A stretch of DNA of 64,000 nt from Barnesiella sp. An55 (GTDB taxonomy: Bacteria > Bacteroidota > Bacteroidia > Bacteroidales > Barnesiellaceae). The stretch spans positions 1 to 64,000 of the forward strand of contig NZ_NFHZ01000017.1 of the NCBI RefSeq assembly GCF_002161555.1. The letters run 5' to 3'. The position numbers and the translations under genes were made by a program. Shown here piece by piece: positions 38,430-57,861 of the stretch. Within the stretch, counting starts at the first letter, position 1, and each line of letters opens with the position of its first letter. The notes under the pieces were generated by a model. It had not been told where the DNA came from. It was given only the letters and a program-made list of their open reading frames with translations, and made no database searches.

Positions 38430-39002
38430 ATGGAATATATAGATAAATCAGAAGCATTGGCATCCTTTAGCGAAGTTTATCAGAAGTATAGAGGACCGTT
38501 CACAAGAATGGCTATTTCTTATGTGGGAGATAAGAGTATAGCTGAGGATTTTGTGACCGATTCATTCGTTGCTTATTGGGAGAACAGAAGCCGATTGCCT
38601 CAAGGCACCAATATACCGGCCTATATATTGGTATCGCTTAAGAATAAATGTTTGACCTATTTGACCCACCTCCGTAAAGAGCAGGAGATAATCGATTCGA
38701 TGAAAAGTCAATACCAGTGGGAACTTGATTTTCAAATAGCCTCTTTGGAGGCATGTAATCCCCAGGAGATATTTTCAGAGGAGGTATGGCGGTTGGTAAA
38801 CGAGGCTATTCGGTCGCTTCCCGATAAGACGAAAGAAATATTTTTGTTGAGTCGTATGGAAAATCTTACCAATCGTGAAATTGCCGAGCAGTTGGATATT
38901 TCGATTAAAACCGTAGAGTTTCATATAGGTCGGGCTTTGAAGGTGATGAGAGTTGCCCTGAAAGATTATTTGCCTCTTTTTTTTCTTCTTTTTGTAAAAT
39001 AA
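38430..39002 (+). CDS. ECF-type RNA polymerase sigma factor of the PUL
   Basis: A 190-residue sigma-70 family factor with region 2 (about 20-85, with YVGDKSIAEDFVTDSFVAYWENR) and region 4 (about 120-180, with LPDKTKEIFLLSRMENLTNREIAEQL then the recognition helix ISIKTVEFHIGRAL). This is the Bacteroidota glycan-utilisation ECF class. The ATG at 38430 is preferred over an in-frame TTG at 38418. Next comes a FecR anti-sigma gene 61 bases downstream, then SusC with an STN domain, so it should be released when SusC binds its glycan and then transcribe the PUL. Confidence 0.92.
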   Translation: MEYIDKSEALASFSEVYQKYRGPFTRMAISYVGDKSIAEDFVTDSFVAYWENRSRLPQGTNIPAYILVSLKNKCLTYLTHLRKEQEIIDSMKSQYQWELDFQIASLEACNPQEIFSEEVWRLVNEAIRSLPDKTKEIFLLSRMENLTNREIAEQLDISIKTVEFHIGRALKVMRVALKDYLPLFFLLFVK

Positions 39003-39063
39003 TTGGATTTTTCGTTAGGGTACATTTATACTCGTTAGTTATATATGCGTAAAGGGTAAATTT

Positions 39064-39999
39064 ATGGATAGAGATTTGCTATATCGTTTTTTCAATGGGA
39101 CCGCTTCAGAATCGGAACGGAAGGATATTAGGCAGTGGGCCGATGCAGCTCCCGAGAATATGAAAGAACTGTTGAAAGAACGTAAATTATACACGGCTAT
39201 CTTATTGACTGGTGAGCGGGAGTCTTTTGCCCTGTCTAAGGAGAAAGAGCCGGTATGGTATAAGCGTTCTTATTTTGTTCGATGGGGGCAGTATGCTGCG
39301 GTTTTTCTCTGTGCCGTGTTATTGACCTGGTTGGTTTCGAATCGGGTAGATCGTGCTTCGTCGATGATGCAAGTGGATGTCCCCCTTGGACAATATATCA
39401 ATCTGACTCTGTCGGATGGAACAAACGTATATTTGAACTCTGGAACAACATTCAAATATCCAACAGCCTTTACCGGGAAAAATCGTGAGGTGGAAATTGA
39501 TGGAGAGGGATTCTTTCGGGTAACGCATCAAAAGAACGATGTCCCTTTTATAGTTAAGACTTCGAAAGGACAGGTGAAGGTATTGGGTACCCAGTTCAAT
39601 GTAGAGGCATACAACGATAAAGATCTGTTTGAGACTTCATTACTTGAAGGGAAAGTTGAGGTGACTACGGCATCTGATAAACTTGTATTGAACCCCAGTG
39701 AAAAAGCCGTTCTTGTTGGTGGAAAATTAAAGAGAGAGACTCTTGATGACGAGAGTAGCTATAGTTGGACAAGCGGGATAATTGACTTTAACAATATTCG
39801 CTTTGATGACCTTATGAAAGAGTTTGAGAAGATTTATGGAGTTCATATTATCATTCGTAATCCGCAAATCAAGGATAATCGCTGTTTAGGAAAATTCCGG
39901 CGTATAGATGGGCTGGACTATGCATTACAAGTATTGCAGGTAGATATAGATTTTGAGTATAGTCACGATTTTGAAACACAAACCTTTTATATTAACTAA
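39064..39999 (+). CDS. FecR-type anti-sigma factor
   Basis: A 311-residue inner-membrane anti-sigma protein. Residues 1-75 are cytoplasmic and should hold the sigma factor. A membrane helix spans about 78-98 (AAVFLCAVLLTWLV). The periplasmic FecR domain follows (about 110-205, with GQYINLTLSDGTNVYLNSGT) and a C-terminal DUF4974-like domain (about 240-310, from FNNIRFDDLMKEFEKIYGV). It stands between the ECF sigma gene and the STN-bearing SusC, the standard trans-envelope signalling order. Confidence 0.93.
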   Translation: MDRDLLYRFFNGTASESERKDIRQWADAAPENMKELLKERKLYTAILLTGERESFALSKEKEPVWYKRSYFVRWGQYAAVFLCAVLLTWLVSNRVDRASSMMQVDVPLGQYINLTLSDGTNVYLNSGTTFKYPTAFTGKNREVEIDGEGFFRVTHQKNDVPFIVKTSKGQVKVLGTQFNVEAYNDKDLFETSLLEGKVEVTTASDKLVLNPSEKAVLVGGKLKRETLDDESSYSWTSGIIDFNNIRFDDLMKEFEKIYGVHIIIRNPQIKDNRCLGKFRRIDGLDYALQVLQVDIDFEYSHDFETQTFYIN

Positions 40000-40046
40000 A
40001 AACACAACACAATACCATGAGAAAGACATAGCCCAGATAAAAAGTA

Positions 40047-40083
40047 GGGAATATCGAACCGTCGCCAAACAATCGATATTCCC
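40047..40083. repeat. Perfect 11-bp inverted repeat upstream of susC
   Basis: GGGAATATCGA (40047-40057) and its complement (40073-40083) flank 15 bases in the gap between fecR and susC. It may be an RNA hairpin that reduces read-through or a protein-binding site. No T-run follows, so a simple terminator is less likely. Confidence 0.65.
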
Positions 40084-40133
40084 CTTTGGAAAATTAACAC
40101 AAGAATTGTATTAATCTTAAAACACACAAATGT

Positions 40134-43100
40134 ATGAAAAAGAAATTGATGTTGAGGAATGAACATTCCTCTAATTCAATATTATTAAGAATTATGAAAA
40201 TCACATGTACCTTATTTTTTGTGGGCATATTGCAGATTTTTGCTTTCAACGCTTATTCTCAAAATGCTCGTGTTACTATGAATCATGTCAATACACCCCT
40301 TCGGGTTATTCTTAACGATATTGAGAAGCAGACCAATTATCTGTTTGTAATTATTAACTCACAAGTCGATACACAGAAGAAATATACGGTACAAGTTAAG
40401 TCGGAACCCGTTTCTACTGTATTGAACACCTTGTTTCAAGGTGAAAATGTGGTTTATCAATTGCAGGGAAATCACATTGTACTTTCGCGTGAGGATAAAA
40501 AGCGAGAGCAGAAATCCAAACGTACAGTGACAGGGTATATAAAGGATCATTCGGGCGAACCATTGGTGGGTGCCAGTATTCTGGTAAAAGGGACTCAACA
40601 AGGTACAGTGACCGACTTGAATGGCTATTTCAGTCTCGAAGGCGAATATGACGAAAGTACCGTATTGAGTATTCGCTATGTGGGTATGGAGAGTAAGGAT
40701 GTGGCAATTGCCGATAAAAACAGTCTCGATATCACTCTCGACGATGGTGCACAACAACTGGACGATGTGGTTGTCGTGGGATATGGAACCCAAAAGAAGA
40801 TAAATTTGAGTGGAGCCGTCGAGGCCGTATCGGGAGCTGTCCTTGAAAACCGCTCGGTCAATAACGTGGGAACCATGTTGCAAGGATTGGTGCCCAACCT
40901 GAATATTAGTGTGGATGGCGGTCAGATAAATCAGACTCCGAGTTTCAATATTCGAGGCGTCACAACTATAACCAATGGTGGAGCTCCATTGATTCTTGTC
41001 GATGGAATCCCTACCGAAGAGGCCGATTTCTCGCGTATGAACAGTGCCGATATTGAGAGTATATCGGTACTTAAGGATGCCTCTTCAGCTGCTATTTATG
41101 GAGCAAGGGCCGCATTCGGTGTAATTCTGGTTACGACGAAAAAAGGAGGAAAAGACGGTAAGGTAAGGTTTACGTTCAACAACACGGTCAACGTGCGTAC
41201 TCTGGGGCGTATGCCACAGGTTGTAAAAGACCCCTATATACAGGCTTCGTATAAAGATATTATGGGAGCTCCGTGGTACGACCTTTACAGCGAAGAGGAG
41301 TTGGAGTATGCCAAGCAACGTTCGCTCGATCCTTCGTTGTCGCCGGTAATGATCGACCCGACTGATCCAAACCGATATACCTATTTGGGCGCTACCGACT
41401 GGTTTCACGAACTCTATAATAATACCGGGCTATCTCATTCACACTCCATCGGTATGTCGGGAGCTACCGAGAAAACCTCGTATTATCTGGGTGGAGAGTA
41501 TTTTGGCGAAAGCGGTATGCTTAAGTATAATACCGATCAGTACAATCGTTATAACTTGAGGAGTAATGTCAGCTATCAGGTGACCGATTGGCTTTCGATT
41601 TCAAATAATACATCGATGACTTATTATACCTATAAAGCACCCTCTTCGCTCGATTGCGGTTGGTTGTACAAAGAGATACACAATGCCAATGCCTTGACTA
41701 TTCCCAAGAATCCCGACGGAAGTTGGACCGAGAGTGGAGCCAAGTATATTGCCGGTACCGAAATGGGCGGCGAAAGCGAATATGAAGAGCTATTGGCTCA
41801 GACTCAGATTTCGTTTGATATCCAGCTTATTAAAAACATTTGGTCGGTAAAAGGAGATCTTGCTGTTAAATTTTGGAACAAGCATAAGAACTATTGGGAG
41901 TCTGATAAAGATATCGTGTATAGAGATGGGCCCGAGAGTGCACCCAAGGAATTGGGATGGAGCGATTTCGCTCGTACCGAGCATGATAATTCCCGATTTA
42001 CCCTTTTTAATGTATATACCAACTTCAACAAGAAATTTGGTAAACACGAGTTAGGCGCAACTCTTGGCTTTGAGCAGCAACTCGAAACCGCACAATACTT
42101 TACCGGTGAGCGAGATGGCCTTATCAGTAACTCGGCTCCCAGTATTGGTGTGGCATCGGGCGATAATAAAACTTTGACCGATACCCGTTACAGCTGGGCT
42201 ACGCGGAGTGGCTTTTATCGGTTGAACTATATATTTGACGATAAATATATTTTTGAAGCAAACGGCCGTTACGATGGAACTTCGCGATTCCAAAAGGACC
42301 ATCGCTTTGGATTTTTCCCTTCATTCTCGGCCGCGTGGGTAATCTCAAACGAGAATTTCTATCAAGGAATAAAAGAGGTGATGAATATGACCAAACTCAG
42401 GGCCTCTTATGGTTGGCTGGGTAATCAAAATGTGGGCTATTATGAGTATATTTCAAATATGACCTTCTATGAGTGTAACTACTTGCTCAATGGGAAAAAG
42501 CCTATTGGAGTGGGGTCGCCCGATTTGATATCCGATGACTTGACGTGGGAGAAAGTAAATACGATTGATTTCGGTTTGGATCTGGCTTTCTTGAGAAACA
42601 GACTTACATTCAGTGGCGATGTATATCGTCGAAATACCAAGGATATGCTCACTCCAGGGAAAACGCTTCCCGGTGTATTGGGTGTTGCGTCGCCTCGTCA
42701 GAATGCGGCCGACCTGAAAACCGAGGGATGGGAAATCTCGATTGGTTGGCAAGACCATTTTATGTTGGCATCCAAACCGTTCAAATATTCGGTTAAATTC
42801 AATATCTCCGATTCGTATGCCGTGATAACCAAGTTTAACAATGAGACCGGAACGCTTGACGATTATTATCCCGGATGGCGTATCGGTGATATATGGGGAT
42901 TGACGACCGAAGGTTTCTTCCAAAGTGAGGAGGATATTAAGAATCATGCCGACCAATGGGAGGTTACGGCCTATCCGGGTGACCGGCCTCTTGCTCCCGG
43001 CGATTTGAAATACAAGGATTTGAATGGCGATGGATATGTCAATAAAGGCAAATGGACAATCGATGACCATGGCGATTTTTCGATTATCGGGAACACAAGC

Positions 43101-43580
43101 GATCGCTATTGCTATGGTGCCGATATAAACGCCGAATGGAATGGCTTTGACCTTAGAATCTTGTTGCAAGGTGTAGGGAAAAAGGACTGGTATCCCAATG
43201 TGTTTACGTTCTTTGGAATTTATCGAGCTCCGTGGTCAGATGTATATACCAACAATCTTGACCACTGGACTCCCGAGAATCCCGACGGATATTTCCCCCG
43301 GTTGAAATCCTATACGGCCGAGGTCGCAGGTGATATGAGTATTGCCCAAACCCGATATTTACAGGATGCCTCTTATATGAGAATCAAGAATATCACCTTT
43401 GGATATACTTTGCCACAGTCGCTTACCCGTAAGATTAAAATCGATCAGGTGCGGTTCTATTTTAGTGGAGATAATATAGCTGAGATTACCAAACTTTGCA
43501 AGAATGTCGATCCCGAGGGGCTTGGATTGGTACATCCCATGCAACGGGTATTCTCTTTTGGCCTCAATCTTAATTTCTAA
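40134..43580 (+). CDS. SusC/RagA-type TonB-dependent glycan importer with STN domain
   Basis: An 1148-residue outer-membrane transporter. The signal peptide ends near residue 43 (NAYSQ). An STN signalling domain follows (about 46-112, from RVTMNHVNTPLRVILNDIEKQ), then a carboxypeptidase-like domain (about 128-212, TGYIKDHSGEPLVGASILVKG). The SusC signature DDVVVVGYGTQKK lies near 213-225, then the plug and barrel to the C-terminus. The STN domain means it both imports glycan and signals to the FecR/sigma pair upstream. SusD lies 12 bases downstream. Class known; substrate not readable from sequence. Confidence 0.96.
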   Translation: MKKKLMLRNEHSSNSILLRIMKITCTLFFVGILQIFAFNAYSQNARVTMNHVNTPLRVILNDIEKQTNYLFVIINSQVDTQKKYTVQVKSEPVSTVLNTLFQGENVVYQLQGNHIVLSREDKKREQKSKRTVTGYIKDHSGEPLVGASILVKGTQQGTVTDLNGYFSLEGEYDESTVLSIRYVGMESKDVAIADKNSLDITLDDGAQQLDDVVVVGYGTQKKINLSGAVEAVSGAVLENRSVNNVGTMLQGLVPNLNISVDGGQINQTPSFNIRGVTTITNGGAPLILVDGIPTEEADFSRMNSADIESISVLKDASSAAIYGARAAFGVILVTTKKGGKDGKVRFTFNNTVNVRTLGRMPQVVKDPYIQASYKDIMGAPWYDLYSEEELEYAKQRSLDPSLSPVMIDPTDPNRYTYLGATDWFHELYNNTGLSHSHSIGMSGATEKTSYYLGGEYFGESGMLKYNTDQYNRYNLRSNVSYQVTDWLSISNNTSMTYYTYKAPSSLDCGWLYKEIHNANALTIPKNPDGSWTESGAKYIAGTEMGGESEYEELLAQTQISFDIQLIKNIWSVKGDLAVKFWNKHKNYWESDKDIVYRDGPESAPKELGWSDFARTEHDNSRFTLFNVYTNFNKKFGKHELGATLGFEQQLETAQYFTGERDGLISNSAPSIGVASGDNKTLTDTRYSWATRSGFYRLNYIFDDKYIFEANGRYDGTSRFQKDHRFGFFPSFSAAWVISNENFYQGIKEVMNMTKLRASYGWLGNQNVGYYEYISNMTFYECNYLLNGKKPIGVGSPDLISDDLTWEKVNTIDFGLDLAFLRNRLTFSGDVYRRNTKDMLTPGKTLPGVLGVASPRQNAADLKTEGWEISIGWQDHFMLASKPFKYSVKFNISDSYAVITKFNNETGTLDDYYPGWRIGDIWGLTTEGFFQSEEDIKNHADQWEVTAYPGDRPLAPGDLKYKDLNGDGYVNKGKWTIDDHGDFSIIGNTSDRYCYGADINAEWNGFDLRILLQGVGKKDWYPNVFTFFGIYRAPWSDVYTNNLDHWTPENPDGYFPRLKSYTAEVAGDMSIAQTRYLQDASYMRIKNITFGYTLPQSLTRKIKIDQVRFYFSGDNIAEITKLCKNVDPEGLGLVHPMQRVFSFGLNLNF

Positions 43581-43592
43581 AACGTATGAATT

Positions 43593-45368
43593 ATGAAAAC
43601 GAGAGTATTATATATTGTAATTATAATGATGGGGTTATGTGGTTGTAACGATTCTTTTTTGAATCGTTTGCCCGAAACGTCGTTGGTTACTGAAAATTTC
43701 TTCAACTCACCGTCCGATCTGGAGCTTTTTGTCAATAAATTGTACTTAAGTGAATCTCCTAAGTATTGGGATCCGGGAACCGACAATGTTGTTGCTTCGG
43801 AAAAGGATGAAATGTTGGATTTGATACATGGCAATATTACACCTGCTACGGTTGGTGGCTGGGATTGGGGCCAGATACGTGAGTTGAACTATTTCCTCGA
43901 TAATGCCGGTAAAGCGCAGGGTGACCAGGAATTGATAAACCATTATATTGGCATTGTGCGTATGTTGCGTGGTCGCGAATATTATGAAATGGTAAAGCGA
44001 TATAGTGATGTACCTTGGTATGACCGTGCTTTGAAAGATACCGAGGTCGATGAGCTATACAAGCCTCAAGATTCCCGCACCTTTGTCGTTGAGAAAATCA
44101 TGGAAGATTTGGATTTCGGGTGTAAAAATATTATGACCGACCTTGAGAATAGAACCGTTTACAACCGGTGGTATGCCTATGGCTTGCTGGCCCGTATAGC
44201 CTTGCATGAAGGTACGTTCAGAAAGTATCACACCGAACTGGGTTTGGAAAGTACTGCCGATGAGTTCCTTCGCAAAGCGGTTACGGCTTGTGAAGCTATC
44301 ATGGCAAATACTACCGACTTTGAGATTTATGATGCCGACGGTCCTGATAATTCGTATCGCAACCTGTTTATCAGCAATGATTTGAGCAAGTGTAAGGAGA
44401 TTATTCTGTTCAAAGATTATGATTATGATGCACAAATTAAGCATTATGCTTCGAATCATGTATTCTCCTATACTACCAATTTGAGTCGGGCTTTGATGGA
44501 GAGTTATCTGGTAAAGAAAGAGAATAAGGCTGTTCCGTTCTCTTCGGTAGAAAACTACCAGACTAAGACATTTATCGAAACCTTTGCCGATAGAGACCCC
44601 CGATATGCACAAACGTTTATGTATCCCGGTTACATACGACCGGGCGATGTACAACCGTTTGTCCCCAATATGAATTTGGGGGGGTATCCTCAAATCAAGT
44701 TCGTATCGAAAGATGCTCAGCAGATTATGCCGGGTACCTCATATAACGATCTTCCCTTGATGCGGCTGGGTGAGATATTGCTTATCTATGCCGAGGCCAA
44801 AGCCGAGTTGGGAACACTCAATCAAGAGGATCTCGATAAATCGATTAATAAGTTGAGAGATCGGGTAGGAATGCCTCACATGATCTTGTCGGAGTTGGTG
44901 ACCGATCCTATTTTGGAACAACAGTATCCCAATGTTTCGGGTGCCATGAAAAACGCAATTCTCGAAGTCCGTCGCGAACGTCGGGTCGAGTTGGCTTGTG
45001 AGGGATTTCGTAAAGATGATATTCTGCGGTGGCGTGTAGGGACCCTTCTCGAGATGCCACAAGGGGCCTATATTGCGGCTATTAACGAGGTATTCGATGT
45101 GACTGGTGACGGAGTTTCCGATGTGGGCATTTTCTTGAACAGTGCTTCGGTCAAGCCCATTTATAAAAAGAAGATATGCTACTATCTTGAGGATGAAAAT
45201 GGCGAAAAGACCGGTATTTCTCTCTCGGAAGGTGATCATGGTTATATTATTCTGACAAATGATTTGACCAGTCCCAAGAAATTTATCGAGCCTAAGTATT
45301 ATTATTTCCCGATACCTCAGGGCGAACGTGTTACCAATCCTAATTTACACGAAACAAATTTCTGGTAA
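43593..45368 (+). CDS. SusD/RagB-type glycan-binding lipoprotein
   Basis: A 591-residue outer-membrane lipoprotein that forms the lid of the SusC channel. The N-terminus ends in the lipobox LCGC, with lipidated Cys18. The SusD N-terminal half follows (about 20-200, NRLPETSLVTENFF), and the RagB/SusD C-terminal segment has LPLMRLGEILLIYAEAKAE (about 385-403) and VRRERRVELACEG (about 462-474). It partners the SusC gene 12 bases upstream. Confidence 0.96.
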   Translation: MKTRVLYIVIIMMGLCGCNDSFLNRLPETSLVTENFFNSPSDLELFVNKLYLSESPKYWDPGTDNVVASEKDEMLDLIHGNITPATVGGWDWGQIRELNYFLDNAGKAQGDQELINHYIGIVRMLRGREYYEMVKRYSDVPWYDRALKDTEVDELYKPQDSRTFVVEKIMEDLDFGCKNIMTDLENRTVYNRWYAYGLLARIALHEGTFRKYHTELGLESTADEFLRKAVTACEAIMANTTDFEIYDADGPDNSYRNLFISNDLSKCKEIILFKDYDYDAQIKHYASNHVFSYTTNLSRALMESYLVKKENKAVPFSSVENYQTKTFIETFADRDPRYAQTFMYPGYIRPGDVQPFVPNMNLGGYPQIKFVSKDAQQIMPGTSYNDLPLMRLGEILLIYAEAKAELGTLNQEDLDKSINKLRDRVGMPHMILSELVTDPILEQQYPNVSGAMKNAILEVRRERRVELACEGFRKDDILRWRVGTLLEMPQGAYIAAINEVFDVTGDGVSDVGIFLNSASVKPIYKKKICYYLEDENGEKTGISLSEGDHGYIILTNDLTSPKKFIEPKYYYFPIPQGERVTNPNLHETNFW

Positions 45369-45501
45369 TTATCTAATTTCCAATTAAATATAATCTCCTT
45401 TTCATCTTGTGCATGACATAAGATGGAGCCCAGGTTATACCCTGTGTTAGAATAACTTTCGGGTTGTTCAGAGGGAGATTATTGTCTAACAAAGAAAGAT
45501 T
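45369..45501. other. Structured spacer after susD
   Basis: The gap holds nested inverted repeats: TAATCTCC (45391-45398) with GGAGATTA (45474-45481), and CATCTT/AAGATG near 45403-45425. These could fold in the mRNA between susD and the enzyme genes and lower expression of the latter. No T-run and no promoter box were seen. Confidence 0.4.
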
Positions 45502-47010
45502 ATGAGATATTCTTATTCTATATTAATCCCGTTACTGGTGTTTGTAGCTTGGCCGCTTCAAGCCAAGGAGGTGGTTGTAACATTTGATAATCCGGCTGAG
45601 TTTTATGAGAAATATCGGTTTGTCGATGGAATCGAGGGTAAAGCCCTGGATTTGAGTTCCGATGCCTATCATCGCAATCCGGTTACGGTGGGGCAGATTG
45701 ATTCGCTCGATATGGCAGGCTCTTTTTCTTTGGGAATTTGGGTCAACACAACGAGTCGGGAAACAGGTCTGAAAGCATTGGTAAGTAATAAGCGTTCATA
45801 TGAGATGAAAGATGCCGGCATTATGTTGTCGGCTCAGGAAAATGGGTCGTGGTGCGTCTATTTTACCGATGGGACCAATTGGCAATGGGATTATCGTCCT
45901 ACTGTAGAACGGCAGCCCATTAATGATGGGAAGTGGCATTTCCTTGCTGTAACTCATAATGCCGATAAAGATGAGATGAAGATGTATTACGACGGGCTAA
46001 ATGTAGCTACTTATTGCACCAATGGGAATAAGTGCTTGGCGACGGGAAATCCTTTATATATAGGAAATCACATCGACGATCAATGGCACAGTTTCGAGGG
46101 CCTTTTAGACCGTTTCTCTTTTATCGATCGGGTGAAGAGTGAAGCTGAAATTGCCGATGAATATGAGCGGTTTACAGGAATCAGGCGAGAGGCTCGGCTA
46201 CCGTATTTTACTCCTGAGATAAATTTGATGGAGTTTAATATTTTCCATGGAGGTCATGAATTGGGTGAGCAGGTGGGCGTAAATCGCGTCGTAGAGGTGA
46301 TTAAAAAGTCTCATGCCGATATCATAGGTATGATTGAAACTTACGGAGCCGGGGCCGAAATAGCCGATGCCCTGGGGTATTATTTCTATTTGCGCAGTTC
46401 AAATCTTTCGATTATGAGCAAGTATCCCATAGAACAGACCTGGGATATGTTTCAGCCCTTCAACACGTGTGCTGCAACAATCCGTATCAGCGAGACTCAG
46501 GTCATCAATTATGTAAATCTGTGGCTCGATTACCGACCCATCACCGACGAGCAAGTGAGGGCACGATTGTCGGTCGAGGAGATAGAACAGCAAGAGTTGC
46601 CCACGCGTTATCGCGAGTTGACGGCCATATTGGGTGATATGCAACCCTTCTTTGACCAGAAAGGGGTGCCTCTCTTTGTCTCGGGAGACTTTAACAGTGG
46701 TTCTCATCTGGATTGGACCGAGGAGGCGAAACATCTGTTCGGTGGCTATGTATTGAAATGGCCTACCAGTGTACTGATGGAGAAGAGAGGTTTTAAGGAT
46801 TCGTATCGAGAACTCCATCCCGATCCTGTGAAGGATCCTTGCCTTACCTGGTCCACCATGTCGAAGCTCGACTTGCAATATCGCATCGACTTTATCTATT
46901 ATATGGGTGATAAAGTGAAAGCCGTTCGTTCTGAAATGCTTGACAAGCATCCGATACGTTTCCCGTCGGACCACGCGGCTATGATAACAACTTTCTCTTT
47001 TAAGAAATGA
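45502..47010 (+). CDS. LamG plus EEP (endonuclease/exonuclease/phosphatase) protein
   Basis: A 502-residue exported protein (signal peptide to about residue 21, LQA-KEV). Residues about 25-230 are a LamG/concanavalin-like fold, likely glycan binding (GSFSLGIWVNTTSRETG and WHFLAVTHNADKDEMKMYYDG). Residues about 240-502 form an EEP phosphodiesterase fold with all expected motifs: EFNIFHGG, GMIETYG, SGDFNSGSH, YRIDFIYY and PSDHAAM. An exported EEP enzyme in a PUL suggests cleavage of a phosphodiester or phosphomonoester in the target glycan or its lipid anchor. Its stop overlaps the GH20 start (ATGA). Confidence 0.85.
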   Translation: MRYSYSILIPLLVFVAWPLQAKEVVVTFDNPAEFYEKYRFVDGIEGKALDLSSDAYHRNPVTVGQIDSLDMAGSFSLGIWVNTTSRETGLKALVSNKRSYEMKDAGIMLSAQENGSWCVYFTDGTNWQWDYRPTVERQPINDGKWHFLAVTHNADKDEMKMYYDGLNVATYCTNGNKCLATGNPLYIGNHIDDQWHSFEGLLDRFSFIDRVKSEAEIADEYERFTGIRREARLPYFTPEINLMEFNIFHGGHELGEQVGVNRVVEVIKKSHADIIGMIETYGAGAEIADALGYYFYLRSSNLSIMSKYPIEQTWDMFQPFNTCAATIRISETQVINYVNLWLDYRPITDEQVRARLSVEEIEQQELPTRYRELTAILGDMQPFFDQKGVPLFVSGDFNSGSHLDWTEEAKHLFGGYVLKWPTSVLMEKRGFKDSYRELHPDPVKDPCLTWSTMSKLDLQYRIDFIYYMGDKVKAVRSEMLDKHPIRFPSDHAAMITTFSFKK

Positions 47011-48651: not shown

Positions 48652-49521
48652 ATGAAAAAGTTAACTTTACTTTTGGCGTGTGTGATTGCTTCGTTGGCAC
48701 AAGTGTGGTCACAGGTTACTATCTCTTTGGAAAATTTCCATATTCAAAGAGGCTCGGACATTGTAGTCAAATATAGCAATGGGGCTGGTAATCAGAAAGA
48801 TTATATCGGTATAGCGCCTCTTGGACAGGCAATTACCGGTATTCCAGGTGGATATACGACTACCTATGCCTATCTCGACAATCCAGGTTCGCAAGAGGGT
48901 ACATGCACCATTCCGGCCAACAACATGGGAGCTACAGGTGATGGCTATTATTGGGCCGTATATCTGTTGGACGACGGGTATAATGCCGCATCGGACTATA
49001 TACCTTTTTACTATGGCGATGAGGTTCCTCAGAATGAGAGTCCCGTTTTGTCGGTTGATGAGTGTACCCCCGATTATACGACGATTACCTTTACCGATAA
49101 TGAACTTTGGAGAATGCTTATTAAAGAGATAAGTGTCGATGGTGAGGTTTTAAGTCCCGATGATTATGCGGTTGAGGCGGGAGCACTCTATGTATTGAAA
49201 GATTTGACTTCGGCCGGCTCGCTCACGATTACGGCTTGGGATCATCCCGATGCAACGGTTCAATTGAATGCTTCGGCGGTTGAGACCGAACTTCTTGTTG
49301 ATAACATACGATTCCACAACAATCAACTGGTTATTGCCGGCGCACAGTCTTCGATTCAGTCGGTTGCAGTATATGCGTTGACCGGGGCATTGTTACAGAC
49401 TTATAAGGTGGCTTCGGAAGAGACTACAATTGATTTGAACTATCTGAATAGTGGGGTTTATGTAGTCCTGCTGAAAGGGAATACTACCCCCCAAGCGATT
49501 AAGATTATCATAAGACATTAA
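48652..49521 (+). CDS. Small secreted protein with T9SS-type tail, unknown function
   Basis: A 289-residue protein with a signal peptide to about residue 20 (VWS-QVT). An N-terminal beta domain (about 21-125) has the pattern YSNGAGNQKDYIGIAPLG, like small Fn3/Ig-type domains found at the start of some secreted phosphoesterases. A second beta domain follows (about 130-210). The end (about 215-289, with NSGVYVVLLKGNTTPQAIKIIIRH) looks like a type A T9SS sorting domain. No catalytic motif. Probably a surface glycan-binding protein of the PUL (inference). Confidence 0.7.
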   Translation: MKKLTLLLACVIASLAQVWSQVTISLENFHIQRGSDIVVKYSNGAGNQKDYIGIAPLGQAITGIPGGYTTTYAYLDNPGSQEGTCTIPANNMGATGDGYYWAVYLLDDGYNAASDYIPFYYGDEVPQNESPVLSVDECTPDYTTITFTDNELWRMLIKEISVDGEVLSPDDYAVEAGALYVLKDLTSAGSLTITAWDHPDATVQLNASAVETELLVDNIRFHNNQLVIAGAQSSIQSVAVYALTGALLQTYKVASEETTIDLNYLNSGVYVVLLKGNTTPQAIKIIIRH

Positions 49522-49528: not shown

Positions 49529-49562
49529 TATATTCTGCCGATAGAAATATCGGCAGAATATA
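49529..49562. repeat. 15-bp hairpin with GAAA tetraloop inside the PUL
   Basis: A perfect 15-bp stem (49529-49543 with 49548-49562) capped by GAAA, a GNRA-type loop. It fills the spacer between the small secreted gene and the GH2 gene. No U-tract follows on the + strand, so it may protect or process the mRNA rather than end it. Confidence 0.8.
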
Positions 49563-49574
49563 ATAATCCCGATT

Positions 49575-52208
49575 ATGAGAAGAACGGTTGTTTCAATCCT
49601 GCTAAGTCTTTGTTTCTGCTATACGCTTTGGGGACATTCAGTTCAACCCGAGTTTTCGGTCGCCGGATTTTATCCCCTTGACGGTGTCGGGCGGGAAATC
49701 TATTCAATGAATCCATCATGGCTTTTTTACAGAGGTGATATGGTTGGTGCCGAGCAAAAGGAGTTTGATGACTCGAGGTGGACTCTGGTATCGTTTCCCC
49801 ATAGTATAGATACTTTGCCTACTGAGGCGAGTGGGTGCATCAATTATCAGGGTGTGTGCTGGTATAGAAAACATTTCTCTTCGTCCGACTCATTTGCTGG
49901 GAAAAAGCTGTTTCTCTATTTCGAGGCAATTATGGGTGAGGCTCGTGTATGGGTCAACGGCAAATTGTGTGCGACCCATTATGGAGGGTATTTACCTGTA
50001 ATAGTAGATATTACCGATAAACTGGAGCCCGAGAATGTGATCGCTGTCTATACCGACAACTCGAACTGTCCGCTCTATCCGCCAGGAAAACCTCAGGAGT
50101 TTCTCGATTTTACCTATTCGGGCGGGATTTATCGCGATTGTTGGTTGATTGCTCATAACCGGGTGTATATAACCGATGAGAATTATGCTGCAGAAGTAGG
50201 TGGGGGAGGACTATTCGTTTCATACAGTCGGGTTTCCGAGAAGTCGGCCGATGTGAATTTGAAGTTGCAGCTGAGAAATGAGACTTCTCGTATTTTTAGC
50301 GGGAAGGTGCTGTTTACGTTGCGAGCTCCGTCGGGTGAAACTGTAGCGCAAAAGAGCTGTCAGGTGCGGCTTTTGTCGGGGCGCTCGGGAAATTGTGAAA
50401 CATATATCAGGCTCAAGAAACCTTATTTGTGGTCTCCATCGTCTCCATCGTTATATCAATTGTATATCGAAGTCAAAGATGAGAACACGGGGGAAACAAT
50501 AGATGGCTATCGAAAAAAGATAGGCATACGCAGTATTGAGTTTAAAGGGTCGGATGGCTTGTGGGTAAACGGGAAACCTTATCCTCATCCGCTGATGGGC
50601 GTGAATCGGCATCAGGATTTTGCCGTAGTGGGCAATGCCATGACCAATAATCTGCATTGGAGAGATGCCATGAAGATAAAAGCTTTGGGACTGGAGGTCG
50701 TGCGTAATGCACATTATCCTCAAGATCCAGCATTTATGGATGCTTGTGACGCTTTGGGCCTTTTTGTCATTGAGAATACTCCAGGATGGCAATTTTGGAA
50801 CGATGAGCCAGTGTTTCAAGATCGTGTTTTCAGCGACATACGAAATATGATTCGTCGGGATCGAAACAGACCGTCGGTTTTCTTGTGGGAACCTATTTTA
50901 AATGAAACTTGGTATCCCGAGTCGTTTGTCGATAGTGCCGTGCAAATCGTTGGCGAGGAGTATCCCTATCACTATTCTCATGTAGTATGCGATTCTGAAG
51001 CTCGGGGAGCTTCGAAGTTTTCTGTTCGTTATGCTCATCCGGGGAATGGTGATACCGATATTGCGACAAAGGAGTTTGATAGCCGGGTCGCTTACTTTAC
51101 CCGAGAGTGGGGTGATAATGTTGATGACTGGAATTCTCATAATTCGACGAGTCGTGTGAGGCGGTCGTGGGGTGAAGTGCCTATGTTGGTACAGGCTATG
51201 CACTACGCCTTACCTCCCTATGTATGCACCAGTTATGATGCGTTATGGCGCACCTCCCGTCAGCATGTAGGTGGATGTTTGTGGCATTCGTTCGATCATC
51301 AGAGGGGATATCATCCCGATCCTTTTTATGGAGGATTGACCGATGTATTCAGACAACCCAAATATGCATATTACATGTTTATGGCACAACGTCCGATCGA
51401 TACTTTGGATATTCAGGCCGATAGTGGCCCAATGGTTTATATTGCGCATGAAATGACGCCTTTCTCACCTGCCGATGTGACAGTGTACAGCAATTGTGAT
51501 GAGGTAAGGCTGACTGTTTTCAAGGGAGGCAACACTTATAGTTATCACAAAAAGCTACAGAGTGAGGGGATGCCTTCACCAATTATCCGGTTTGAAAAGG
51601 TTTATCGGTTTATGGATGACAAGGCGCTTTCTCGCCAAAACCGGCACGATGAGGTATTCTTACTGGCCGAGGGCTTTCTGAATGGAGTAAAGGTGGCTGA
51701 GCATAAGCGTATGCCGGCCAGGCGTCCGGCTAAAATCGAACTTCGGTTGGATGATGAGCACATTGCTCCGATAGCCGACGGATCTGATTTAGTTACCGTG
51801 ATAGCTTCGGTGACCGACGAGCAGGGTACGGTTAAACGACTCAACAATTATCACATACGCTTTTCAATCGAAGGAGAGGGCCGGCTGGTTGCCAATGAGG
51901 CAACACATACCAATCCTCGAGCCGTTGAGTGGGGAACAGCACCTGTTTTGGTGCGTACAACCCTACGCCCCGGAAAGGTAAAGGTGCGTGCAGCTGTTGA
52001 TTTCCCTGGTTTACAGATGCCTCTACAGGGTGAGTTGGAGTTTGAGGTATTGCCGGCGCCCTATGGGGCTATCTATAATGAAGAAGATCGAGCAGGGGTG
52101 AGCGAATTGATCTCTACCGGAGATAGTGGTGAGGAGGTTGAGCAACGTAGCCGTCTTAACCAGGAGTTGAAAAGTGTAGAGCAACAGCAAACAGATTTTG
52201 GAGAGTAG
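49575..52208 (+). CDS. GH2-family glycoside hydrolase (beta-galactosidase-like)
   Basis: An 877-residue enzyme (signal peptide to about residue 20). It has the GH2 sugar-binding domain (about 40-200), Ig-like domain (about 205-315), TIM barrel (about 318-620) and C-terminal beta domains. The acid/base Glu444 follows Asn443 in LWEPILNETWYPE, and the nucleophile is Glu511 in FTREWGD. GH2 includes beta-galactosidases, beta-mannosidases and beta-glucuronidases; the overall pattern is nearest the beta-galactosidase-like group, but specificity is not proved. The last 40 residues are charged with no sorting tail. Confidence 0.92.
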   Translation: MRRTVVSILLSLCFCYTLWGHSVQPEFSVAGFYPLDGVGREIYSMNPSWLFYRGDMVGAEQKEFDDSRWTLVSFPHSIDTLPTEASGCINYQGVCWYRKHFSSSDSFAGKKLFLYFEAIMGEARVWVNGKLCATHYGGYLPVIVDITDKLEPENVIAVYTDNSNCPLYPPGKPQEFLDFTYSGGIYRDCWLIAHNRVYITDENYAAEVGGGGLFVSYSRVSEKSADVNLKLQLRNETSRIFSGKVLFTLRAPSGETVAQKSCQVRLLSGRSGNCETYIRLKKPYLWSPSSPSLYQLYIEVKDENTGETIDGYRKKIGIRSIEFKGSDGLWVNGKPYPHPLMGVNRHQDFAVVGNAMTNNLHWRDAMKIKALGLEVVRNAHYPQDPAFMDACDALGLFVIENTPGWQFWNDEPVFQDRVFSDIRNMIRRDRNRPSVFLWEPILNETWYPESFVDSAVQIVGEEYPYHYSHVVCDSEARGASKFSVRYAHPGNGDTDIATKEFDSRVAYFTREWGDNVDDWNSHNSTSRVRRSWGEVPMLVQAMHYALPPYVCTSYDALWRTSRQHVGGCLWHSFDHQRGYHPDPFYGGLTDVFRQPKYAYYMFMAQRPIDTLDIQADSGPMVYIAHEMTPFSPADVTVYSNCDEVRLTVFKGGNTYSYHKKLQSEGMPSPIIRFEKVYRFMDDKALSRQNRHDEVFLLAEGFLNGVKVAEHKRMPARRPAKIELRLDDEHIAPIADGSDLVTVIASVTDEQGTVKRLNNYHIRFSIEGEGRLVANEATHTNPRAVEWGTAPVLVRTTLRPGKVKVRAAVDFPGLQMPLQGELEFEVLPAPYGAIYNEEDRAGVSELISTGDSGEEVEQRSRLNQELKSVEQQQTDFGE

Positions 52209-52240
52209 ATATATAATTAGTAATCAATAAAATAAAATGT

Positions 52241-55200
52241 ATGAAAAAATATTTTTTCTCAATGATTGCCTTAATGGCTTGGATGTACCCCGGTACTGTT
52301 ATGGCCGATACAGGCGAGGTATGGGTGATGCCTTGTACAGAAATTCTGGATAATTATCAGGACTTCCCGGCCAAGGAATCTAATTTGGTCGTGTTGGGTA
52401 AAGGCGAGACCGAGCATGTACAACTTGTCTTATCGACTATACCGAAAGAGAACATCTCTTTTACGTCGTCGTCGGCTCCGGCCGGTATTGATATTAGCTA
52501 TAGAGTTGTTCGCGAAATCGATACCTTTGACGATGCATTGGTCCCTTTTGATTCTCAGGTAGAAGCGGCAGAGGGTACGACCGTAGTGTGGTTGACGTTT
52601 GAGACCGATCGGAATTGCTCGGTAGGGACGTATGACTATTCGGTACAAGTCAAGAGTCTGAAAAATAATGTAAAGGTAAATTTCAAGATTCGAGTGGCCG
52701 ATTATGAGATACCGCTTACCCCGTCAATACCTTCGGAGTTTAGTATCGATTTGGATAATATGCCCGACGGAGGTTCCGACAGGCAAAAGGAACTGTGGAC
52801 CGAGTTTCTGTTGTCGCGTCGCATAGATCCTTATTATAGTGTAATTGTCGATCGAGGTGCTTGGCGATGGGAGAATTGTTTCTCGCCTTGGTCCTGGGAT
52901 GACCCCAGAAGTCAAGCTTTGCTTCAAGACCCGCGTTTCTGTCGTTTTGCGCTCCCTTGTATGCTTGAGGATGAGGCGTTTTTACGCATGTGTAGCGATA
53001 TGAAGGAGAAAGGAGTTTTTGACCGGTGCTATTTTTATATCTGGGATGAGCCTAAGAAAGAGGCTCATTATGCACAAATTGCCGAAGAGTCGTCGCATCT
53101 GTTGTCGCTGGAGCCAGGGTCGAAGATGTTGGTTCCGGTGTCGAGCTATTTGATTGATGGTGATCACAAATGGAATTACGATTATACATTTGACTTTTTG
53201 ACACAGTACGTTAAAATTTTACCTGTTGCTGCCGAAGAATACAAAGGTGAAAATGCGAAGGCCGAGGAGTTTAGAAAGATGATTGAGCCTCAGTCGGAGT
53301 GGTGGACTTATGTGTGCTGTTATCCCAAAGGCGATCAGCCCAATTTCCTCTTGGAACTAACTCCGTTTCATCATCGAGCCATTATGTGGCGAGTGTGGAA
53401 AGAACAGGAGACCGGCTTCTTGTATTGGGGAGTTAATCGTTATCAGTTGAATCCGTTTGCTTTTGATCGTAGTCTCGATGCGGTAGGCGATGGCGCTTTG
53501 GTTTTCCCGGGAAGTCTTTTTGGAATAGAGGAGCAGCCTGTCGCTTCGGTACGCTTGGAGCAATGGAAAGAGGGACAGGAGGATTATGAGCTGTTGAAAA
53601 TCGTAGAGAAAAAGATTGGCCGAGAGAAAACCGAACGAATATTGAGTCAAGTATATCGTACTCCCACCGACTTTACCAAAAGTTCCGAAGAGATAGAGTC
53701 ATTTCGTAATAGCTTGATTCAGATTATAGAGAATTATGATCCTTCGACTCAAATCATGATACGGGGTGAGTTGCATGAGGTGGATACCTTGAATGCCTAT
53801 GTCCCGGGACCGGGTTGTGAATATGCATATATCCGCATCGACGATTTACCTGTTGAGGCCCATGTTTTGAAACTCGATTTGCAAAATCCCTATTCGCAAG
53901 TGAAGACATTTTTAGGCAATGATGTTATCGATGGTTTGGAGCGGGTTTCTTCGGCTTGTGATAGATATACCACGGCCGGCTCCGATGCGTATGCCGGTAT
54001 CAATGGCGATTTCTTTAACATCAGTGGCCACAACGAATATCCACTGGGCGCTCCTCGGGGTGGTTGTGCCTCCGAAGGGGTGATACAGCGAGAACCTCGC
54101 AGTATGGCATGGGCTTTTGCCGCGATTGATTATGACAACAAACCGATACTTAACAACATGGAGTTTGGGGGGTCGGTAGTCAGTTTGAAATCACCTATCG
54201 CATCATATAGTTTTAATGATGTGAATATCCCCCGTACCGATTGCTACTCATGCGATATGACTTTTTATAATGAGTTTGCCGGTGGCTATACTCGTATGGA
54301 TGAGAATGCCGATATTGGTGATAAACTAAAGACCGAGGTGTTCTTCAAATTGTCCGATGGCCAGAGTTGGGGGATAAATTCACCCAAGACTTGTATCGTG
54401 ACTCGAATTATTCGTGATACACAGGGGCATAATGCATTGGAACCGGGAGAGTCGGCTTTGTCGGGGATTGATGCCGCAAAGGCTTTTCTGGACAACTTGA
54501 CTGTGGGACAGAAATTGAAAATCAATATGTCTATTAAGACAGCCGATGGAGAGGCTCCCCTGATTAAGGAGATGGTGGGTGGTAACTCGTTGTTGATGAA
54601 GAATGGGGTAATTATGGATTGTAATTTCAATGACTCGTATAACAATGTGTTATATCCGCGAACTGGAATTGGTTGTTCATCCGACGGTCGTTGGTTATAC
54701 CTGATTGCTATTGACGGGCGACAGTCCCATTCGAGAGGCGTGTACTCCGATGAGATGTGTGATATTTTGCGGGCCTTGGGGGCCTCGGATGTAATAGGCT
54801 TGGACGGAGGCGGTTCTACCGGTATGGTGGTTAATCATGCGGTAGTCAACAAGCCGAGTGATGGACAAGAGCGTGCGGTTACCAATGGCTGGCTTTTGAG
54901 AACTACGGCGCCTGCCGATGACAAAATTGCCCGATTGTCCTTTAATTATTGGAATAAAGCGCAAATTGAGGCTCGGGAGATTCCTTTGTCGGTTTTGGGG
55001 TATAACCAGTACGATGTCCTTGTGGACTCCGAACTATCTCCGGTTTCTTTGAGTTGTACTCCCGGTCTGGGACATATCGAAGGTGAAACTTTGTTGCTTG
55101 ATGGTCCAGAGAAGAGTGGAACGGTAACTGCCAAGTATGAAAGGTTGACGGTCTCTCGTTACTTGAACTTCGGAGATCCATCGGGAATAGAGTCTATAGC

Positions 55201-55450
55201 AGAGGTTAACGTTCCATTCAAATTTTATCGTAATCCAGGAACGAATCTCTTCTATATTGAGGCAAGCGGCGATGGGGGTACCCGAATGAGTTACGGCCTG
55301 TACGCAACAAGTGGTGGTTGCATACGGCAGGGCGAAGCCGATATCATAGGCTCATATTGTTTCGATTTTTCCGATTTGACCCCTGGCGTCTATCTCTTGA
55401 GAATATGCATGGGGAATGACTGTCATACGATTAAATTGATTATCGGGTAA
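52241..55450 (+). CDS. GH123-like hydrolase fused to phosphodiester glycosidase (NAGPA) with T9SS tail
   Basis: A 1069-residue secreted multidomain enzyme (signal peptide to about residue 22). Residues about 40-500 resemble the DUF4091/GH123 group, beta-N-acetylgalactosaminidases acting by substrate-assisted catalysis; the expected Asp-Glu pair is Asp269-Glu270 in FYIWDEPKKE. Residues about 545-895 match the NAGPA phosphodiester glycosidase fold (NGDFF near 588, YPRTGIGCSSDGRWLYL, and GLDGGGSTGM near 853), the family of the mammalian enzyme that removes GlcNAc from phosphodiester-linked mannose. Residues about 990-1069 form a T9SS type A sorting domain. Neither activity is proven. The fusion is unusual to me. 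Confidence 0.82.
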   Translation: MKKYFFSMIALMAWMYPGTVMADTGEVWVMPCTEILDNYQDFPAKESNLVVLGKGETEHVQLVLSTIPKENISFTSSSAPAGIDISYRVVREIDTFDDALVPFDSQVEAAEGTTVVWLTFETDRNCSVGTYDYSVQVKSLKNNVKVNFKIRVADYEIPLTPSIPSEFSIDLDNMPDGGSDRQKELWTEFLLSRRIDPYYSVIVDRGAWRWENCFSPWSWDDPRSQALLQDPRFCRFALPCMLEDEAFLRMCSDMKEKGVFDRCYFYIWDEPKKEAHYAQIAEESSHLLSLEPGSKMLVPVSSYLIDGDHKWNYDYTFDFLTQYVKILPVAAEEYKGENAKAEEFRKMIEPQSEWWTYVCCYPKGDQPNFLLELTPFHHRAIMWRVWKEQETGFLYWGVNRYQLNPFAFDRSLDAVGDGALVFPGSLFGIEEQPVASVRLEQWKEGQEDYELLKIVEKKIGREKTERILSQVYRTPTDFTKSSEEIESFRNSLIQIIENYDPSTQIMIRGELHEVDTLNAYVPGPGCEYAYIRIDDLPVEAHVLKLDLQNPYSQVKTFLGNDVIDGLERVSSACDRYTTAGSDAYAGINGDFFNISGHNEYPLGAPRGGCASEGVIQREPRSMAWAFAAIDYDNKPILNNMEFGGSVVSLKSPIASYSFNDVNIPRTDCYSCDMTFYNEFAGGYTRMDENADIGDKLKTEVFFKLSDGQSWGINSPKTCIVTRIIRDTQGHNALEPGESALSGIDAAKAFLDNLTVGQKLKINMSIKTADGEAPLIKEMVGGNSLLMKNGVIMDCNFNDSYNNVLYPRTGIGCSSDGRWLYLIAIDGRQSHSRGVYSDEMCDILRALGASDVIGLDGGGSTGMVVNHAVVNKPSDGQERAVTNGWLLRTTAPADDKIARLSFNYWNKAQIEAREIPLSVLGYNQYDVLVDSELSPVSLSCTPGLGHIEGETLLLDGPEKSGTVTAKYERLTVSRYLNFGDPSGIESIAEVNVPFKFYRNPGTNLFYIEASGDGGTRMSYGLYATSGGCIRQGEADIIGSYCFDFSDLTPGVYLLRICMGNDCHTIKLIIG

Positions 55451-55557
55451 TTTGTGTAATGGAGTTTGAAAGCCTTTCGGTTCGGCCTATCGGGCAGAAT
55501 ACAAAGACTTTTGTAACTCCATACATTCATCTTCATTATGCAAATTCAATAATATAT

Positions 55558-57861
55558 ATGTTTCGTCAATTTGTTATCCTCATTATGGTTGGTCTATGGA
55601 CCGTTTGGGCGCAAGCTGATGTTCCTGCGGCTCATTGGATTACGGCCTTTGAGAACCAGAGTGCCACGAATACATGGCTTTGTTTTCGGCGGGATATTCG
55701 ACTGGATACTCTCCCTCGGGGAAGTGTGAACCTTAAGATTGCCGCCGACAGCAAATATTGGATGTGGATAAATGGGACATTGGCCGTTTTTGAGGGGGCA
55801 GTAAAGCGAGGCCCTACTCCCGAAGATACCTATTATGATACGGTTGATATCTCTTCTTTTCTGCAGGAGGGGAACAATACGATAGCGATTTTGCTGTGGT
55901 ACTTTGGGAAGGAGGGATTCTCATATCAGCCCAGCGGTAAGGCGGGCCTTTTTGTCGAGAGCCTTTCTCCGACATTCTCCTTATGTAGCGACAAACAGTG
56001 GTTGGCAACGGTCCATGCCGGTTATTATACACCGGCTGGTCCCCAGCCAAATTTTCGATTGCCCGAGTCCAATATCGGGTATGATGCTCGTCGTTTCTCC
56101 GAACGGTGGATTTCAATGCCGGTCGATTCCCTTTCTTCTTGGCCAGCGGCTGTGGAGGTTGGACTATTGGGATGCAAACCTTGGAATAAACTGTACCCTC
56201 GAGTGATACCCTTGTGGAAAGACTATGGGCTTCGAGCATATGACCGTCAGGAGTGGCATCGGGGCATCGACAGAGATACACTTGTGTGTTATTTACCCTA
56301 TAACATGCAGGTAACTCCTGCTTTTGAATTGGAGTCACAAGGCGGTGATACAATAGGTATGTGTACCGATAATTATCGAGGAGGAGGTGCGAATAATCTT
56401 CGGGCCGAGTATGTGACAAGGAGTGGTGTTCAGCAGTATGAGAGTTTGGGATGGATAAACGGACATGCGGTCTATTATATTTTGCCTAAAGGTGTTACTC
56501 TTACACGGGCTCTGTATCGAGAGAGTTCATATGATACCTCGTTTGCCGGTTCGTTCAGTTGTAACGACGATTTTTATAACCGACTTTGGACAAAGGCACA
56601 GCGTACACTTCTGGTGACCATGCGCGATACATACATGGATTGTCCCGATCGGGAGAGGGCACAATGGTGGGGCGACGAGGTCATCGAATCGGGTGAGTCG
56701 TTTTATGCCCTTTGTCCTCGGTCGCATTTACTCATCAAGAAAGGCATGTATGAACTGATGCGGTGGCAAAGGCCCGATGGTACGATTTTTTCGCCAGTAC
56801 CTGCATCGAATTACCAGACGGAGCTCCCGGGACAAATGTTGGCCAGTGTAGGATACTATGGTTTCTGGAACTATTTCCTTCATACGGGCGACACGGCAAC
56901 CATTGCCGATTTGTATGATGCGGTAAAACGGTATTTGGAGGTCTGGGAATACAATGCAGATGGTACTGTCAAATTCCGTAGTGGCGAATGGACTTGGGGC
57001 GATTGGGGAACTAATGTCGATATACAGGGACTATTCAATGCCTGGTATTACTTGGCGTTGGATGGAGTCTCGCGTATGGCCGACCTCCTTGATAAACGGG
57101 AGGATGCTATTGAGTTGCGTCGCCAAATGGTGTCGCTGAAGGAGTCGTTCAACCGAGTGTTCTGGTGTGGCGATGCATATCGGGCCAATCGGTTGCTACC
57201 CGATCCCGATGATCGGCTTCAGGCTTTGGCTGTTGTTTCGGGTTTGGCCGATGAATCGAAATATGATGCTATTCGGGAACTGCTCGGACGGTATGAATAT
57301 GCCAGCCCATATATGGAAAAATATGTCTTGGAGGCATTATTTGATATGGGTTGTCCGCACGAAGCCTTGGCCCGGATGAAGAAACGATTTGGCAAGATGG
57401 TCGATCATCCTCGTCTCACTACCCTTTTTGAAGGATGGGGTATAGGTCCTGAAGGATTTGGCGGCGGTACATATAATCATGCCTGGAGTGGTGGCGGTCT
57501 TACTCTTTTGTCTCAAAAGGTGTGTGGGATATCTCCGATAGAAGCGGGTTTTAAAGCCTTTCGGGTTACGCCTCAAATGGGACCGCTTGTCCATGCCGAG
57601 GCTTCATTATTGAGTGTCCGAGGTCGAATATCGGTTGACTTGACTCGTTCGGGCCATAAACTGGATATGCTCTTAACGGTTCCTGCAGATACTCGGGCCA
57701 TAATTCCGATAGCAGATAATGTCTGTCGGGTGAAGTTGAATGGACGATTGGTCTTCAAGGATAAGAAGCCATATCCTGGACAGGGGTGTGAATTTAATAC
57801 TTCGGAAGGAGTTTCTCTTGCCGTGTCGAGCGGCGTGTGGAGAATAGCATTTTCTTATTAA
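55558..57861 (+). CDS. GH78-like six-hairpin glycosidase
   Basis: A 767-residue exported enzyme; the start at 55558 gives a clean signal peptide (to about residue 21, AQA-DVP), while the in-frame ATG at 55459 would add 33 non-signal residues. An N-terminal beta-sandwich occupies about 30-170. The (alpha/alpha)6 barrel (about 310-680) contains DCPDRERAQWWGDE (361-374), the alpha-L-rhamnosidase (GH78) segment carrying the general acid region, and TYNHAWSGG near the end of the barrel. A C-terminal beta domain follows. Rhamnosidase activity is the default guess; GH78-like proteins with other specificities exist. Last gene of the PUL. Confidence 0.82.
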   Translation: MFRQFVILIMVGLWTVWAQADVPAAHWITAFENQSATNTWLCFRRDIRLDTLPRGSVNLKIAADSKYWMWINGTLAVFEGAVKRGPTPEDTYYDTVDISSFLQEGNNTIAILLWYFGKEGFSYQPSGKAGLFVESLSPTFSLCSDKQWLATVHAGYYTPAGPQPNFRLPESNIGYDARRFSERWISMPVDSLSSWPAAVEVGLLGCKPWNKLYPRVIPLWKDYGLRAYDRQEWHRGIDRDTLVCYLPYNMQVTPAFELESQGGDTIGMCTDNYRGGGANNLRAEYVTRSGVQQYESLGWINGHAVYYILPKGVTLTRALYRESSYDTSFAGSFSCNDDFYNRLWTKAQRTLLVTMRDTYMDCPDRERAQWWGDEVIESGESFYALCPRSHLLIKKGMYELMRWQRPDGTIFSPVPASNYQTELPGQMLASVGYYGFWNYFLHTGDTATIADLYDAVKRYLEVWEYNADGTVKFRSGEWTWGDWGTNVDIQGLFNAWYYLALDGVSRMADLLDKREDAIELRRQMVSLKESFNRVFWCGDAYRANRLLPDPDDRLQALAVVSGLADESKYDAIRELLGRYEYASPYMEKYVLEALFDMGCPHEALARMKKRFGKMVDHPRLTTLFEGWGIGPEGFGGGTYNHAWSGGGLTLLSQKVCGISPIEAGFKAFRVTPQMGPLVHAEASLLSVRGRISVDLTRSGHKLDMLLTVPADTRAIIPIADNVCRVKLNGRLVFKDKKPYPGQGCEFNTSEGVSLAVSSGVWRIAFSY

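Follow-up and report, generated by a model that had tools for sequence, protein, structure and literature searches.

A putatively mobile Sus-type island of Barnesiella sp. An55 that pairs exo-glycosidases with two phosphoester-cleaving folds

Results

A ten-gene Sus-type locus with two phosphoester-cleaving folds

The window analysed here is a 64,000-nucleotide stretch (positions 1 to 64,000 of contig NZ_NFHZ01000017.1, forward strand) of Barnesiella sp. An55, whose 3.03-Mb genome is referred to as G000. Ten plus-strand open reading frames lie head to tail at 38418-57861, with intergenic gaps of −4 to 134 bp. Judged from sequence, this locus is probably a horizontally acquired Sus-type utilization island whose substrate would be a phosphate-substituted glycan containing β-linked N-acetylhexosamine (HexNAc). 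This reading is based on the joint inheritance of a regulator pair, a SusC/SusD importer, surface proteins, four domains of exo-glycosidase type, and two phosphoester-cleaving folds.

The genes follow the order ECF sigma, FecR, STN-SusC, SusD, LamG-EEP, GH20, a protein sorted by the type IX secretion system (T9SS), GH2, a GH123-like/NAGPA fusion, and a GH78-type enzyme. All named domains score above the curated Pfam cut-offs, and NCBIfam agrees. The regulators carry Sigma70_r2/r4 (the ECF sigma factor) and FecR with FecR_C (the anti-sigma factor); the importer carries STN, CarbopepD_reg_2 and Plug in SusC, and SusD_RagB in SusD. The enzymes match Laminin_G_3 with Exo_endo_phos, GH20 with GH20b, GH2, GH123_cat with NAGPA, and Bac_rhamnosid6H with its C-terminal companion, while the T9SS protein consists of Shr-like_HID and Por_Secre_tail. 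The SusC/SusD pair, the linked carbohydrate-active enzymes, the dedicated regulator, and the conservation of the whole unit make the locus a Sus-type polysaccharide utilization locus (PUL). The initial annotation, made from the letters of the sequence, had named the same ten genes and domains and had noted catalytic motifs; all of the domains were recovered, and the motifs of the EEP, GH20, GH2, GH123-like, NAGPA, and GH78 enzymes are intact.

The EEP and NAGPA domains

The catalytic residues of the EEP domain (N246, E279, D396-N398, D463, and S489-D490-H491) are all present. A phmmer search of the domain against PDB returned zero matches, and a predicted model with a structural search was used instead. 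The predicted fold matches many EEP enzymes with Z-scores of about 24, including the mannosyl-6-phosphatase BT3783 (4c1r) of Bacteroides thetaiotaomicron, which is part of the yeast-mannan PUL. Fold and metal/catalytic residues (N, E, D-x-N, D, S-D-H) thus place the protein in the EEP superfamily (PF03372). Since TDP2, nocturnin, human neutral sphingomyelinase, BT3783, and others obtained similar structural scores, the ranking does not separate EEP subfamilies, and the protein is assigned to none. Its closest named relative, from an uncultured Barnesiella (L129), is 82% identical.

Profile and fold likewise agree on NAGPA (PF09992; 98 bits versus a cut-off of 25). The Pfam match spans residues 753-886 only of the 1069-residue fusion protein; in the predicted model (mean pLDDT 87), residues 501-987 as a whole adopt the NAGPA/DUF2233 fold, and NAGPA-family structures were their only Foldseek matches clearly above noise. 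The NGDFF, DGR, and DGGGS motifs are intact, and PRT is also conserved. Domain searches therefore left both regions in the families that the initial annotation had named, and did not move either to an unrelated one. We infer that the EEP domain would hydrolyse a sugar phosphate or phosphodiester, and the NAGPA domain a sugar-1-phosphodiester. A search for the fused form found it only in Barnesiella and in one genome of another family (G173).

A second NAGPA-rich locus was observed on contig C2 of the same genome (L034:3437-19999 and L035:423-4829). It encodes SusC, a PKD protein, a GHL10 glycosidase, two to three tandem NAGPA proteins, Amidase_3, and a BadF-type ATPase, and it recurs within the genus and beyond it (L044, L046, L047, L048, L051, L052). 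It looks like a PUL for scavenging peptidoglycan or cell wall, where NAGPA might cut links of the HexNAc-1-P-6-MurNAc (N-acetylmuramic acid) type.

The glycosidases

The HIGGDE motif of GH20 and the NE and REWGD motifs of GH2 are intact. The catalytic domain of the fusion protein scores 76 bits against GH123 (cut-off 23), with the DE pair at residues 269-270. Its part from residue 141 to 490 has the plant Group 2 enzyme NgaAt (8k2h), described in a study of β-NGA enzymes (PMC11087588), as its best solved match, with the DE catalytic pair conserved. The E-value was 3e-47 for NgaAt versus 4e-5 for the structures of GH123 type, 5l7v/5l7r, so that the label "GH123-like" holds for the domain and its catalytic pair, with the nearest kin being Group 2 and not the classical enzymes BvGH123 and NgaP. 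In the GH78-type protein, D567, E572, D579, and E841 of the Bacillus enzyme RhaB (2okx) are all aligned with identical residues. This complete GH78 catalytic set suggests L-rhamnose, a sugar that mammals lack, in the target glycan. L-Rhamnose isomerase is encoded in 5/5 island-bearing genomes versus 3/6 island-free ones, a distribution that is suggestive only.

A different GH123 PUL of the genus occupies L042:2-18872 (G003). It comprises sigma, FecR, SusC, DUF4832, GH27, two GH123-like proteins, LamG, and a GH2 that is split over three frames and is 52-58% identical to the GH2 of the window. Its α-galactose (Gal) and β-GalNAc enzymes would suit globo-type glycans.

The locus occupies a tRNA-Gly site and recurs as a unit

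The complete set of ten genes was found in the same order in two further Barnesiella genomes (G002 and G007), and in part at a contig end in a third (G005). The genome of another family, G173, also carries all ten in this order, plus one extra abhydrolase gene. Because the identical order recurs in G002, G007, and G173, the set is not a chance assembly. The island of G000, G002, and G007 is flanked by tRNA-Gly(CCC) on one side and a nitrilase gene on the other. In five congeners (G001, G003, G004, G006, and G008) only a short stretch separates the two, so the site is empty there. The G173 copy lies at a different site, and that genome is the only island bearer among the five of its family.

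The GC content of the island is 44.8% versus 52.4% for the rest of the window. Between G000 and G002, the flanking nitrilase is 97% identical, and the island proteins are 69-92% identical. These observations point to a horizontally acquired, mobile cassette that may have entered more than once. Shortly 3' of the tRNA-Gly gene, the sequence GGGGTGTAGCACAACGGATAGAACAG (38162-38187) resembles the 5' half of another tRNA and is possibly a remnant of an earlier integration at this site. An RNA family search matched the tRNA and nothing else. The features are collected in Table 1.

Table 1. Features of the island and its flanks (window coordinates)
Feature	Position	Strand	Basis or remark
tRNA-Gly (CCC)	38004..38077	+	Left island boundary, likely integration site; nitrilase region directly follows in island-free species
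ECF sigma factor, TIGR02985 family	38418..39002	+	Alternative ATG start at 38430
FecR-type anti-sigma factor	39064..39999	+	Pfam
SusC-type TonB-dependent transporter, N-terminal STN	40134..43580	+	Pfam; TIGR04056, 866 bits
SusD-type surface lipoprotein	43593..45368	+	Pfam; lineage elsewhere often with phosphoesterase neighbours
LamG + EEP metal-dependent phosphoesterase	45502..47010	+	Pfam, fold, intact catalytic motifs
GH20 exo-β-N-acetylhexosaminidase	47007..48614	+	Pfam
T9SS-sorted protein with Shr-like HID domain, candidate surface glycan-binding protein	48652..49521	+	Pfam, NCBIfam; ortholog examined
GH2, β-galactosidase type	49575..52208	+	GalA/GalB nearest; glucuronidase N-x-K motif not seen by eye
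GH123-like catalytic part, fusion residues 1-500	52241..53740	+	Pfam; nearest solved relative NgaAt (8k2h)
NAGPA (DUF2233) phosphodiester glycosidase part, residues 501-987, and weak T9SS-like tail	53741..55450	+	Pfam, predicted fold
GH78-type 6-hairpin glycosidase	55459..57861	+	D-E-D-E catalytic residues of 2okx conserved
Nitrilase/GNAT gene	57962..59533	−	Conserved right flank of the island site

Recurrent phosphoesterase neighbours of LamG-EEP and SusD relatives

A genome-wide search yielded 79 named loci that encode LamG-EEP relatives. Calcineurin-type phosphoesterases of one kind were present in 18 of them, with 0.6 expected from the phosphoesterase rate in eleven such genomes; when all three reference kinds were counted, a phosphoesterase lay three genes or fewer from the EEP gene in 19/77 loci. 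Related SusC/SusD proteins also adjoin LamG-EEP relatives. In six loci, spread over Flavobacteriia, Cytophagia, and Bacteroidia, EEP occurs together with a phosphoesterase and with GH20 or GH123; L160 and L172 additionally encode SusC/SusD of the window kind (SusD identity 43% and 32%, respectively). The neighbouring EEP of L172 matches the PGAP2IP EEP model.

Seven loci place LamG-EEP relatives beside genes for 2-aminoethylphosphonate (AEP) catabolism, among them those of Kriegella, Arenibacter, and Pedobacter, where the relatives are 38-40% identical. The Kriegella matches to PhnA, phosphonoacetaldehyde dehydrogenase, and PhnW are all above the NCBIfam cut-offs. Linkage of PhnW/PhnY/PhnA to EEP is present in loci of the sister clade and absent from the window locus.

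As a control that did not start from EEP, the surroundings of nine SusD relatives from an order-wide search were read. Phosphoesterase neighbours were present in 4/9, one of which has EEP together with two metallophosphoesterases. Because gene context beyond the window points the same way, the SusCD/EEP lineage is likely to handle a phosphorus-bearing substrate, and the general proposal of the initial annotation, a phosphodiester-bearing target rich in amino sugars, gains support from this comparison.

Two further groups of relatives were noted. A PUL represented by L069:317-18029 and L137 combines LamG-EEP with GH5 (Glyco_hydro_5_C), GH29, a PhoD-like phosphatase, a sulfatase, and GH20, and possibly targets sulfated or phosphorylated glycolipids. 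The glycosphingolipid reading that its GH5 prompted rests on one locus, and is kept only as part of an alternative considered below. In a separate Marinilabiliaceae group (L158, L179-L184, L191-L192, L195, L197, L201, L204, L207), the LamG-EEP gene immediately precedes an ECF sigma/FecR pair, with neither SusD nor a phosphoesterase, and often itself follows the gene of a protein of ~1430 residues, which in L075 is a hybrid two-component regulator. We read this group as having a different role.

Discussion

Proposed function and candidate substrates

The gene content suggests the following route. The glycan would be bound at the cell surface and imported via SusC/SusD. The NAGPA domain would hydrolyse hexosyl-1-phosphodiester links, leaving a sugar phosphate, and the EEP enzyme would then take off the remaining phosphate or phosphoethanolamine-like group. 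With the phospho-groups gone, the exo-glycosidases would be able to trim the chain: GH20 and the GH123-like domain (the latter perhaps with a disaccharide) would remove β-HexNAc, GH2 β-Gal, and GH78 α-L-rhamnose. The ECF sigma/FecR pair would switch the locus on through its coupling to the SusC STN domain.

Several points weigh against this reading. The EEP and NAGPA families include enzymes with other substrates, so that EEP may be a monoester phosphatase and NAGPA may have a different role. The EEPs linked to AEP genes belong to a group that is sister to the window clade. G000 has no PhnW over the cut-off, and the AEP reading was dropped for the window itself on that account; the calcineurin-type partner, too, is absent from this genome. 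The case for rhamnose depends on conserved residues, and the family in question is only remotely related to GH78 enzymes of solved structure.

The least certain step is the choice of an actual glycan. The best fit is a bacterial surface polysaccharide with rhamnose and phosphodiester linkages, and, because L-rhamnose and sugar-1-phosphodiesters are both common in streptococcal and lactococcal surface polysaccharides, it is our leading guess, albeit a weak one.

An animal glycan with phosphoethanolamine or aminoethylphosphonate (glycosylphosphatidylinositol (GPI)-anchor side chains, invertebrate glycans, or glycosphingolipids) is an unlikely alternative, in which GH2 and GH20/GH123 would strip Gal-GalNAc branches and EEP would remove the phospho(no)ethanolamine. 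LamG-EEP relatives do occur in AEP catabolic loci and with fucosidases, sulfatases, GH20, and GH123; the EEP beside one of them matches the PGAP2IP model, and another adjoins GH5 with Glyco_hydro_5_C, a domain known from endoglycoceramidases. However, Pfam detects no α-mannosidase, fucosidase, sulfatase, or sialidase among the ten genes, the GH92 genes of the genome lying elsewhere. It is hard to see what the intact GH78 enzyme would do on an animal glycan, and the sugar-1-phosphodiester specificity of NAGPA mismatches ethanolamine phosphate. GPI-anchor glycans, one of the targets put forward in the initial annotation, would require α-mannosidases, and have lost ground accordingly, as GH78 points to rhamnose.

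We consider it distinctly improbable that both phosphoester folds are incidental, with EEP a nuclease or general scavenging phosphatase, NAGPA a cell-wall enzyme, and the target an unphosphorylated HexNAc glycan. The EEP fold is common to DNases, and NAGPA paralogues of the genus stand in the peptidoglycan-like locus with GHL10 and Amidase_3. Yet both domains are retained in every complete copy of the island, and the LamG-EEP family tracks phosphoesterase and phosphonate genes, not DNA metabolism. A phosphorylated high-mannose N-glycan (GlcNAc-1-P-6-Man), also proposed at the outset, is very improbable: NAGPA and EEP would mirror uncovering followed by dephosphorylation by a BT3783-like mannose-6-phosphatase, and 4c1r is among the fold matches, but the locus has neither the endo-glycosidase (GH18/GH85) nor the mannosidases (GH92/GH38/GH125) needed, and GH2, GH123, and GH78 would be left unexplained.

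Significance

Beyond the phosphate-substituted HexNAc glycan preferred for the window, the LamG-EEP family could tentatively, and with somewhat less than even confidence, be taken to define a SusCD class, not yet described, that acts across Bacteroidota on amino-sugar glycans substituted with phosphate or phosphonate. Release of the phospho or phosphono substituent would fall to EEP, in many cases accompanied by a calcineurin-type esterase, and in Barnesiella the fusion would let a single protein sever both a HexNAc bond and a sugar-1-phosphodiester.

Release of phosphate and phosphonate from complex glycans by gut and marine bacteria is poorly understood. An EEP family that is linked to SusCD and turns up repeatedly with phosphoesterases, HexNAc-removing enzymes, and AEP catabolism offers a concrete enzyme to assay, and is a candidate for the step, so far missing, by which polymers supply AEP pathways. 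The island also illustrates how a putative phospho-glycan capacity can move between gut species as one cassette.

Sus-type loci with both EEP and NAGPA had seemed unfamiliar. For EEP this does not stand, since by the precedent of BT3783 a phosphatase of this fold in a Sus locus is not new; the combination with NAGPA was found only in Barnesiella and one other family. What seems new is the GH123-like/NAGPA fusion and the recurrent association of SusCD, LamG-EEP, and a phosphoesterase with HexNAc-removing enzymes or AEP catabolism. The literature on PULs with a phosphodiester glycosidase, on GPI and NAGPA in Bacteroides, and on AEP with SusC yielded no account of a locus of this kind; because preprints and most subscription journals lay outside coverage, this silence is weak evidence of novelty.

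Comparison with known systems

LamG-EEP relatives link the window locus to the AEP catabolic loci (PhnW-PhnY-PhnA) of Kriegella, Arenibacter, and Pedobacter, in which they lie, but neither the window locus nor its genome has PhnW over the cut-off. The GH123-like domain resembles the Group 2 β-N-acetylgalactosaminidase NgaAt (PMC11087588) in its catalytic region; NgaAt, however, is a plant enzyme without NAGPA, and the specificity of the window domain is a prediction. The NAGPA part shares its fold and the NGDFF, PRT, DGR, and DGGGS motifs with the NAGPA/DUF2233 phosphodiester glycosidases (the human uncovering enzyme family; BACOVA_00430, 3ohg), but here it follows a GH123-like domain in one polypeptide encoded within a SusCD operon, and its activity is predicted only. 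Finally, BT3783 is just 18% identical to the window EEP over the structural match, and, unlike the mannosidase-based yeast-mannan PUL of B. thetaiotaomicron, the island has enzymes of HexNAc, Gal, and rhamnose type together with NAGPA. The two systems nevertheless have in common a Sus-type locus with an EEP enzyme of the same fold, which in the island, too, would clear phosphate for exo-glycosidases.

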